Shown: piece after piece, positions 4,705-6,290 of the stretch
Layout of the letters: every line of letters begins with the position of its first letter
How positions within the stretch are numbered: position 1 is the first letter of the stretch
NCBI GenBank assembly: GCA_028291285.1
Contig: JAQGIJ010000029.1
Span: forward strand, 1-6,290
Direction of reading: 5' to 3'
Length of the DNA stretch: 6,290 nt
Origin: Phenylobacterium sp.
GTDB lineage: Bacteria > Pseudomonadota > Alphaproteobacteria > Caulobacterales > Caulobacteraceae
Position numbers and translations under genes: made by a program
Notes under the pieces: generated by a model
Databases searched by the model: none
The model's input: only the letters and a program-made list of their open reading frames with translations
Told to the model about the DNA's origin: nothing

Positions 4705-5712
4705 CTAGAGGCGCAGGGCGACCAACAGGATCACGAACAGCCCGTAGAACAGGCCCATGCTGGCGAGGAGCGCGCGCGAGATCACGCCACGCCGGAAGGC
4801 GACGAACATCACCGCCACCGCGAGCGCCGTGATCCCGCCCGCCAGGATCAACGAGCGGTCCAGCAGCCAAGGCGTCCAGAAGATCCCGAAGGCGGTGGGC
4901 ACCGTCGCCTGGATCATCATGGCCCCGCTGATGTTGGCGAGCGCCAGCCGGTGCTTGCCCTGACGCACCCAGATGATGGCGTTCATGGTCTCCGGCAGTT
5001 CGGTGGCGATGGGGCTGAGCAGCAGCGCCAGGAGCTGAGGCTTCAGGCCCAGCGCCGGGCCGAGCGTGTCGAGCTGGCTGACGAAGACGCGGGAGGCGCC
5101 GAAGATCACCAGGAGGGCCGCCGAAGTCTGCAACAGGCTCAGGCCCAGCGGCGCCTCGGGCCGCTTCCTGGCGATGATCAGGGGTTCCAGCGCCTCCTCG
5201 ACTTCGCCGCTCTCGTCGCGGCGCATCTCTTGCCAGAAGTAGAGCGCGTACGCCGCGAGGAAGAGGATGCCCAGCCACGGCTTGAAGGCGAAGGCGACGA
5301 GGCCCACCGCCAGTTTCACGGCGAAGATCGTCAGGAACCAGCCCTGGTCACGGCTCAGGCGGGTGAAGTCCCGACGCACGTCCGCCGTCCGCTTCAGCGG
5401 CTGTCGGGAGAGCAGCAGCGTCGCACCCACCGTCGCATAGGCGATGGTGGCGAGCACCAGCGGCCCGCCGAGGGCGGCGCCCACGCCCAGCTCCCGCTGA
5501 GCATCGCCCTTGCCCAGGGCCACGGCCACGAAGGTGACCACGCTCTCGGGGAGCGCGGTGCCGAAGGCCGCCAGGATGGTGCCGGTGGCGGTGCTGCCGA
5601 CGGAGAGCTTGCGGCCAACCCATTCCACGCCGTTCACGAAGAACTCGCAGGCGAAATAGATGACCACGGCCGAGCCGAGCAGCAGCAGCAGGTTCAGGAG
5701 AAGCGGATTCAT
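4705..5712 (-). CDS. CaCA-family cation antiporter (Na+/Ca2+ exchanger-like), likely Mn2+-linked
   Basis: An integral membrane protein of 335 residues, ATG complementary to 5710-5712, stop TAG at 4705-4707. A weak Shine-Dalgarno GGGA (5720-5723 on the complement) lies 7 bases before the start. It has the two alpha-repeats of the Ca2+/cation antiporter superfamily (sodium/calcium exchanger membrane region): alpha-1 at about 36-67 with GTALPES at 51-57, and alpha-2 at about 233-275 with ATELPETMNA at 236-245 followed by ANISGAMM. The acidic residues E56 and E241 in these motifs are the expected ion-coordinating positions. About ten hydrophobic segments are visible, with a charged loop at about 161-186 between the halves. 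Homology alone says Na+/Ca2+ or H+/cation exchange. The yybP-ykoY riboswitch in its leader points instead to manganese, and export of excess Mn2+ is my inferred role. It is convergent with the DUF1259 gene and downstream of the cupredoxin gene on the same strand. Confidence 0.88.
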   Translation of the reverse strand: MNPLLLNLLLLLGSAVVIYFACEFFVNGVEWVGRKLSVGSTATGTILAAFGTALPESVVTFVAVALGKGDAQRELGVGAALGGPLVLATIAYATVGATLLLSRQPLKRTADVRRDFTRLSRDQGWFLTIFAVKLAVGLVAFAFKPWLGILFLAAYALYFWQEMRRDESGEVEEALEPLIIARKRPEAPLGLSLLQTSAALLVIFGASRVFVSQLDTLGPALGLKPQLLALLLSPIATELPETMNAIIWVRQGKHRLALANISGAMMIQATVPTAFGIFWTPWLLDRSLILAGGITALAVAVMFVAFRRGVISRALLASMGLFYGLFVILLVALRL

Positions 5713-5782
5713 CAGGCGGTCCCAGGGTCAGGCAGAGCGCACCAAGGGTCGGGCTCCGCCGCCTGACGTTGGGCGAAGTCGA
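5713..5782 (-). promoter_or_regulatory. putative riboswitch expression platform before the antiporter start codon
   Basis: In mRNA sense, a GTCAGGCGG segment (complement of 5759-5767) can form two exclusive pairings. GTCAGGC (5761-5767) pairs perfectly with GCCTGAC (5727-5733), or CAGGCGG (5759-5765) pairs perfectly with CCGCCTG (5713-5719), which touches the ATG. Separately, the 3' strand of aptamer helix P1 (CCAGGG, 5784-5789) is complementary to CCCTGG (5722-5727), which overlaps the weak Shine-Dalgarno GGGA (5720-5723). No U-run follows any hairpin, so control of translation fits better than transcription termination. Which fold goes with bound metal is inference. Confidence 0.5.
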
Positions 5783-5888
5783 CCCCTGGTCTCGCCATGC
5801 CCGGTGGGCCGCTCGCGCCATGCCGGCGAACCGGCAAGCCTGTTGACGCGAGCCCCGCTGAAGTCCGCGGGCGGCTACTCCCCAAGAG
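5783..5888 (-). promoter_or_regulatory. yybP-ykoY manganese riboswitch aptamer
   Basis: Read on the minus strand, P1 is CUCUUGG (5882-5888) paired with CCAGGGG (5783-5789), including two G-U pairs. The conserved GGAGUAGC follows P1 directly (5874-5881). Hairpin P2 is CCCGC/GCGGG (5854-5858 with 5867-5871). P3 is CUCGCG/CGCGAG (5847-5852 with 5812-5817), with the conserved CGUCAAC strand inside it and a distal GCCGG-UUCG-CCGGC hairpin (5822-5835). P4 is GCCC-acc-GGGC (5799-5809). The 3' conserved GCGAGACC (5788-5795) then runs into P1. This layout matches, element by element, the Lactococcus lactis yybP aptamer as I recall it (GGAGUAGC, CGUCAA loop, GCAAGACC). The class binds Mn2+ and usually raises expression of Mn exporters. 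It lies 70 bases before the antiporter start codon. Confidence 0.9.
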
Positions 5889-5897
5889 GAGCCGGAC

Positions 5898-5925
5898 ACC
5901 TAGGGATCGCCGGCTGCGCTGGCAA
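5898..5925 (-). promoter_or_regulatory. putative sigma-70-type promoter for the riboswitch-antiporter transcript
   Basis: TTGCCA (complement of 5920-5925) and CTAGGT (complement of 5898-5903) are separated by 16 bases. A start about 7 bases after the second hexamer would fall near 5891, just ahead of the first base of riboswitch helix P1 at 5888. The position is right, but the -10 match is weak, so transcription entering from the cupredoxin gene remains possible. Confidence 0.4.
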
Positions 5926-5940
5926 GCCGAAAGATGCGCT

Positions 5941-5961
5941 CGCCCGCCGACGCAGGCGGCG
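5941..5961 (-). terminator. possible terminator hairpin after the cupredoxin gene
   Basis: Just after the cupredoxin stop, CGCCGCC (complement of 5955-5961) pairs with GGCGGGCG (complement of 5941-5948) with one bulged G and a 6-base loop. Only a short, distant TCTTT follows, so termination would be weak. If active, it separates the cupredoxin transcript from the antiporter promoter. Confidence 0.3.
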
Positions 5962-5963
5962 CG

Positions 5964-6290
5964 TCAGGGCTGGGCGGCGGTGATCGTCCCGCTGGCCGTC
6001 TCGGGGTGCAGCTCGCCCATGAAGCCGTAGCGCCCCGGCTCGAGCGGCCCGATCTCGAAGCTCGCCTTCCCGTGCGGGGTCACGTCCTGTTCGACGTGCA
6101 GGTCCTCGCTGTCGAACTCCTCGCTGGCGGCATCCTCGTTGCGCAGCTCGATGCGGATGCGCTGGCCCGCGGGGACGGTCAGCTGGTCCGGACTGAACCG
6201 GTGGTCCTTGAGCACCAGCGTGAAAGCGCGGGGCGGCTCGGCGTGGGCCGCGCCCGTCAGCAGGGCTCCGGCGGCGAAGGCGGCGATCAG
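5964..6290 (-). CDS. exported cupredoxin-domain protein (EfeO/Cupredoxin_1-like), 5' truncated
   Basis: The frame is open to the right edge, so the start codon is missing; 108 residues are visible. Visible residues 1-17 are the tail of a Sec signal peptide (hydrophobic Ala/Leu stretch ending AHA, then EPP), placing the protein in the periplasm. A GTG at 6213-6215 lies inside the mature domain and is not the start. The rest is a single cupredoxin-like fold: FTLVLKDHRFSPDQLTVPAG (23-42), NEDAASEEFDSEDLHVEQ (about 51-68), GPLEPGRYGFMGELHPETASG (about 81-101), then a final beta strand. The Cys ligand of blue copper proteins is absent; the acidic EEF/SED cluster, H65, M91 and H95 are the visible metal-ligand candidates. 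Proteins of this type often neighbour FTR1-type iron permeases, but no permease is visible here and any such partner would lie beyond the right edge. Metal identity is not resolved. Confidence 0.82.
   Translation of the reverse strand: MIAAFAAGALLTGAAHAEPPRAFTLVLKDHRFSPDQLTVPAGQRIRIELRNEDAASEEFDSEDLHVEQDVTPHGKASFEIGPLEPGRYGFMGELHPETASGTITAAQP

Follow-up and report, generated by a model that had tools for sequence, protein, structure and literature searches.

The DNA analysed here (the window; 6,290 nucleotides of a Phenylobacterium sp. genome, contig JAQGIJ010000029.1) carries genes on both strands. On the plus strand lie a protein that resembles thioredoxin reductase and has a partial cyclic-nucleotide-binding domain scoring below the Pfam cut-off (2-1477), a THAP4-like heme-binding beta-barrel protein beside it (PF08768; 1541-2194), a match to the chrB-b RNA (RF03086; 2251-2303, 34.3 bits, below its cut-off of 36.5, E 2e-4), a chromate transporter just downstream of that match (PF02417; 2313-3749) and, directly 3' of the transporter, a protein with two DUF1259 stretches (PF07485; 3770-4654). 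RF03086 was found in 20 of 99 genomes of the family to which Phenylobacterium aquaticum belongs (16 over the cut-off); an open frame lay behind the match at 7 of the 12 loci viewed, of several kinds, and one of these (L236) is chrB-like by our own reading. On the minus strand, the gene for a small cupredoxin-domain protein (PF13473; 5964-6290) ends about 75 nt before a riboswitch aptamer, which is followed by the gene for a CaCA-type antiporter. A match to the CRISPR repeat family RF01336 inside the antiporter gene (4832-4902, minus strand; 23.4 against 45 bits, E 0.58) was taken as chance. The features of the leader and the antiporter gene are:

5766..5889, minus strand: yybP-ykoY (Mn2+) riboswitch aptamer, RF00080 (49.7 bits against 45)
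5882..5888, minus strand: 5' strand (CUCUUGG) of the switch helix P1.1; all 7 positions form standard pairs with 5789-5783, two of them G-U
5875-5872/5797-5794, minus strand: P1.2; standard pairs
5854..5871, minus strand: P2 hairpin (5871-5867/5858-5854); 5 of 5 pairs
5811..5853, minus strand: P3 (5853-5844/5820-5811); 10 pairs, bearing the GCGUCAACA signature (Rfam alignment)
5843-5837, minus strand: L3, a 7-nt loop (ACAGGCU) inside the P3 element
5836-5831/5826-5821, minus strand: P3.1; 6 pairs
5799..5809, minus strand: P4 hairpin (5809-5806/5802-5799); 4 of 4 pairs
5783..5789, minus strand: P1.1 switch helix, 3' strand CCAGGGG; pairs with 5888-5882
5727..5767, minus strand: hairpin H, GUCAGGC (5767-5761) with GCCUGAC (5733-5727); 7 of 7 pairs
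5742..5750, minus strand: anti-P1 element GACCCUUGG; its complement is the 3' strand of P1 in the extended form 5789-5781
5720..5723, minus strand: GGGA, a probable Shine-Dalgarno 7 nt upstream of the start codon; a weak motif, read from the sequence
4705..5712, minus strand: CaCA-type antiporter of 335 aa, probable Mn2+ exporter (PF01699, E 6.5e-28)

The aptamer was located by an Rfam search, in which RF00080 matched 5889-5766 on the minus strand (E 3e-11; model positions 1-177, untruncated) with a score only 4.7 bits above the gathering score of 45 bits. A sequence-only reading had placed a manganese (yybP-ykoY) riboswitch on this strand at 5783..5888 and had named the Rfam covariance model as the check, which the leader passes; the limits given there turn out to be the outer ends of P1.1, and the helices and loops that it listed (P1, P2, the P3 signature, P4 and the hairpins) are all found in the sequence. 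Calling the riboswitch hidden was an overstatement, as the score clears Rfam's own cut-off. The aptamer before the antiporter gene of P. aquaticum (L001; protein 84% identical to that of the window) scores 36.7 bits, below the cut-off, and together with the narrow margin of the window this indicates that the lineage fits the Rfam model poorly. All listed helices consist of standard pairs, some of them G-U, as read from the sequence, and they give the four-way-junction layout of the RF00080 class (P1.1, P2, P3 with L3, and P4). The L1 sequence GGGGAGUAGC is present, as is GCGAGACC, which comes after the P4 hairpin in the order of elements.

According to the X. oryzae work (PMC6754395), contacts or key roles in that riboswitch belong to G8, G9 and A10 of L1 and to A46, A48, C51 and U52 of L3. 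The window keeps the equivalents of all of these in our mapping through the Rfam consensus, and by the same mapping its L3 differs from the consensus at two positions only, U49 and A50 (X. oryzae numbering), both of which are G in the window. The metal-site nucleotides (the L1 GGA with the A-minor adenosine, and the invariant L3 adenosine) are kept in GGGGAGUAG and UCAACA, the crystal numbering having been mapped by hand. We infer that the leader RNA of the window binds Mn2+.

The antiporter gene is the next gene downstream of the aptamer on the same strand (start at 5712), and from this arrangement the aptamer appears to sit in the 5' leader of a gene for a metal transporter. Transcription of the riboswitch could come from read-through out of the cupredoxin gene or from a promoter of its own. 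Two Na_Ca_ex stretches (PF01699, 98 bits) place the protein in the CaCA superfamily. Its scores against the NCBIfam models fall far short of their cut-offs, with 69.5 bits for the Ca2+/Na+ antiporter model TIGR00367 (curated cut-off 179.65) and 41.2 for NF008005 (cut-off 432). The repeat motifs are GTALPE (first) and ATELPE (second). Among 80 related loci, GTALPE was seen in 78, the other two (L078 and L079) being partial matches in which the motif is not visible, and the second motif was ATELPE in 71 and ATEMPE in 9, a conservation that is partly selection because the words used to search for the loci covered part of the second repeat. Seven Bordetella loci (L041, L059, L060, L061, L062, L065 and L075) encode proteins with 54-57% identity to the window protein, and in every one of them the leader contains an RF00080 match that exceeds the cut-off.

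The aptamer recurs before many of these antiporter genes. The L1 motif GGGGAGTAGC (at most one mismatch) lay within 450 bases before the protein match in 68 of the 80 loci, and in 63 of those 68 a script placed the best L3 match behind it. It was not found in the leaders of the other 12, which include the second and third loci by identity (L002, 81%; L003, 79%) and two partial matches with the gene start outside the view (L078 and L079). Rfam scans of the genomes of all 80 loci gave a match in the leader of at least 62, of which 56 exceed the cut-off and 6 fall short of it (L001, 36.7; L006, 43.0; L022, 41.3; L047, 44.2; L067, 30.4; L071, 30.9 bits); many genomes were scored for part of the first-look candidates, so a missing match is not a firm absence. 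The motif was present without an Rfam match in six loci, all actinomycete (L069, L070, L072, L074, L076 and L077). A further locus outside the 80 (L181; antiporter 87% identical) also bears the aptamer. As a side observation, eight actinomycete CaCA leaders (L067, L069-L072, L074, L076 and L077) carry diverged Mn aptamers with AAGGGGAGUAG and an L3 containing UCGACA; these score near 30 bits in L067 and L071 and are missed by Rfam in the other six, and they are perhaps an undercounted variant.

A wider view of what the aptamer controls came from 149 genomes drawn from the family of P. aquaticum, whose own aptamer locus in this survey is L087. RF00080 was present in at least 106 of the 149 (83 over the cut-off), with at least 107 matches in all. 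Behind 107 aptamers stood GDT1/UPF0016 genes (82), CaCA genes (13), MntP genes (8), CDF genes (2) and two unclassified cases, one at a contig end (L137) and one in which the script found no motif (L152). A sequence motif served to call UPF0016, BLAST against the window protein served for CaCA, and MntP and CDF were assigned by eye; Pfam agreed with the call in 10 of 10 genes checked. The Mn riboswitch before genes of the cation diffusion facilitator family (L197 and L203) is a side observation, at 2 of the 107. Two genomes had two aptamers each, one before GDT1 (L164) and one before CaCA (L181) in G088 and both before CaCA (L083 and L088) in G004. Because GDT1/UPF0016, MntP and CDF genes stand behind the same aptamer, CaCA takes the place of other Mn exporters here and is one choice among several interchangeable exporters served by a single switch. 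Despite its calcium-pump label, the window antiporter most likely exports Mn2+.

A candidate for the switch lies between the aptamer and the start codon. The 3' strand of P1, CCAGGGGUC (5789-5781), pairs with the anti-P1 element (5750-5742) through nine standard pairs, one of them G-U. The anti-P1 element is 9 nt long and begins 38 nt ahead of the start codon of the antiporter, and the strength of its pairing was matched in 0 of 200 mononucleotide shuffles of the window. As in the RF00080 class, the P1.1 3' strand is thus common to P1.1 and an alternative helix. Many other leaders have a partner for the P1 strand at 32-50 nt from the start, and others have it further upstream; in single-sequence shuffles, a partner at p 0.05 or less was obtained in only 17 of 69 leaders (among which the P1 strand of L049 was taken at a wrong boundary). 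Partners were also exchanged in a set of 26 leaders whose P1 strands all differ: the leader's own partner was favoured by a mean of -1.52 kcal/mol after double centring, with 17 of the 26 below zero and 0 of 10000 permutations as low, although the sequences are related and this last figure is not a strict probability. The remaining 9 leaders show no preference for the partner of their own sequence; one of them is the near relative L001. A comparison of the window with L181 shows two of the nine anti-P1 pairs changed on both sides (G-C to A-U and U-A to C-G) and two further pairs on one side, with all pairing preserved. L001 keeps eight of the nine pairs. The P1/anti-P1 pairing covaries among relatives, though not in all.

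The arms of hairpin H, which encloses the anti-P1 element, recur in L001 and also in L181, where one pair is G-U; in a nested fold, H and the anti-P1 helix are mutually exclusive. Folded freely, the leader RNA of the window takes the anti-P1 form at -111.6 kcal/mol, and forcing P1 gives -94.0 kcal/mol, in a folding model that omits metal and tertiary contacts. As free folding favours anti-P1 so strongly, an effect of Mn2+ would have to act during transcription. The Shine-Dalgarno GGG is predicted to be paired in both folds. Openness of the start region showed no clear difference in the window (0.56 free, 0.46 after P1) and was mixed in 18 relatives (for L005, L019 and L057 the start of the protein match was used and not a start codon), and we do not claim a translational switch through openness of the ribosome site. 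Neither an intrinsic terminator (with a U run) nor a sigma-70 promoter was found by consensus in 5640-6060.

We consider it highly probable that the antiporter leader senses Mn2+ as a riboswitch and, at high cytosolic Mn2+, switches on a Mn exporter of the CaCA superfamily. Bound Mn2+ would dock L1 with L3 and stabilise P1.1, whose formation would withhold its 3' strand from the anti-P1 element; without Mn2+, the anti-P1 helix would form, hairpin H would be lost and expression would drop, with Rho-dependent or other termination, or ribosome blocking, as candidates for the OFF step. The exchange of the P1.1 3' strand between its two partners is likely to be the switch itself, and its direction in the window would be ON. 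To our knowledge, the characterised yybP-ykoY members are ON switches.

Alternatively, the riboswitch may be real while the antiporter moves mainly Ca2+ (or Na+/H+), Mn2+ being just the signal, for example in rebalancing Ca2+ under Mn stress. The Pfam name Na_Ca_ex and the best NCBIfam name, calcium/sodium antiporter, suggest as much, but the latter is assigned at 69.5 bits where 179.65 are called for, the second repeat reads ATELPE where NCX_Mj has GTSLPE, and the aptamer in the surveyed family otherwise precedes GDT1/UPF0016, MntP and CDF genes; PMC8546581 moreover describes Mn export by the CaCA protein of B. pertussis, and an expression of that protein that is insensitive to Ca2+. We regard a mainly Ca2+-moving antiporter as improbable.

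A reversal of sign, in which Mn2+ favours P1.1 together with hairpin H and H masks the ribosome site to turn expression OFF, seems to us very unlikely. Hairpin H does adjoin the Shine-Dalgarno, the base of H could by our reading extend over it in L004 and L013, and the GGG is predicted paired with P1 forced; as drawn in the window and L181, however, H leaves the Shine-Dalgarno outside the stem, and the riboswitches of L. lactis (PMC11087558) and BP3410 (PMC8546581) are ON switches in these two reports. Least probable of all is that the aptamer is degenerate, its fold retained by descent and its control of expression lost: the modest score and the existence of related loci without an aptamer would fit such decay, whereas the intact L1, an L3 off consensus only at U49 and A50 (our mapping) and the joint change of the P1 strand and anti-P1 between the window and L181 speak against it. 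The Mn2+-responsive exporter switch remains our preferred reading, and under it a riboswitch can correct the annotation of a transporter: many genes of the subfamily named 'calcium antiporter' probably encode exporters of manganese. Anti-P1 and its covariation also offer a concrete, testable switch for a GC-rich leader that lacks an intrinsic terminator by consensus. With somewhat better than even confidence, we extend the reading to the whole CaCA clade with GTALPE and ATE(L/M)PE, which may be a family devoted to Mn2+ export that goes by the wrong name, Ca2+/Na+ antiporter, in both Proteobacteria and Actinomycetes, with the Mn riboswitch undercounted (the actinomycete variant with UCGACA in L3, at about 30 bits or missed).

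Among known systems, the Ca2+/Na+ exchangers of the NCX_Mj and YrbG type share with the window protein the CaCA superfamily and the two repeat motifs. The solved exchanger NCX_Mj has GTSLPE in both repeats where the window has GTALPE and ATELPE, and the window protein, unlike these exchangers, is far under the NCBIfam cut-offs for Ca2+/Na+ antiporters. The GDT1/UPF0016, MntP and CDF cases have the same regulator with other transporter families by Pfam, and probably serve the same purpose as the CaCA case.

The RF00080 riboswitches of L. lactis and X. oryzae, as described in PMC11087558 and PMC6754395, resemble the window in the L1 and L3 sequences, the four-way junction and the use of the P1.1 3' strand as the switching strand; E. 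coli mntP and alx are further known Mn2+ riboswitches of RF00080. In L. lactis, P1.1 is the switch helix and shares its 3' strand with an intrinsic terminator (PMC11087558), whereas consensus yields no such terminator in the window leader.

The closest precedent is the B. pertussis CaCA antiporter BP3410, whose gene is likewise preceded by a yybP-ykoY riboswitch (PMC8546581; Capek et al. 2021). That report describes induction by Mn2+ with Ca2+ without effect, no induction when the promoter or the riboswitch was mutated, and a cell Mn content about 5-fold lower with a working exporter. The use of this riboswitch on a CaCA antiporter is already known from experiment in Bordetella; of what the sequence-only reading had said on this point, the aptamer, its leader position and the established class hold, and the novelty of the CaCA target does not. 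The BP3410 system is betaproteobacterial with a mapped promoter and early stop (PMC8546581), whereas the window is GC-rich, from Phenylobacterium, and has another anti-P1 sequence; the likeness to Bordetella rests on the seven loci of other Bordetella species, through their 54-57% identity and their aptamers. In both systems the aptamer directly precedes the CaCA antiporter gene, and the window extends the published Bordetella arrangement to Phenylobacterium.
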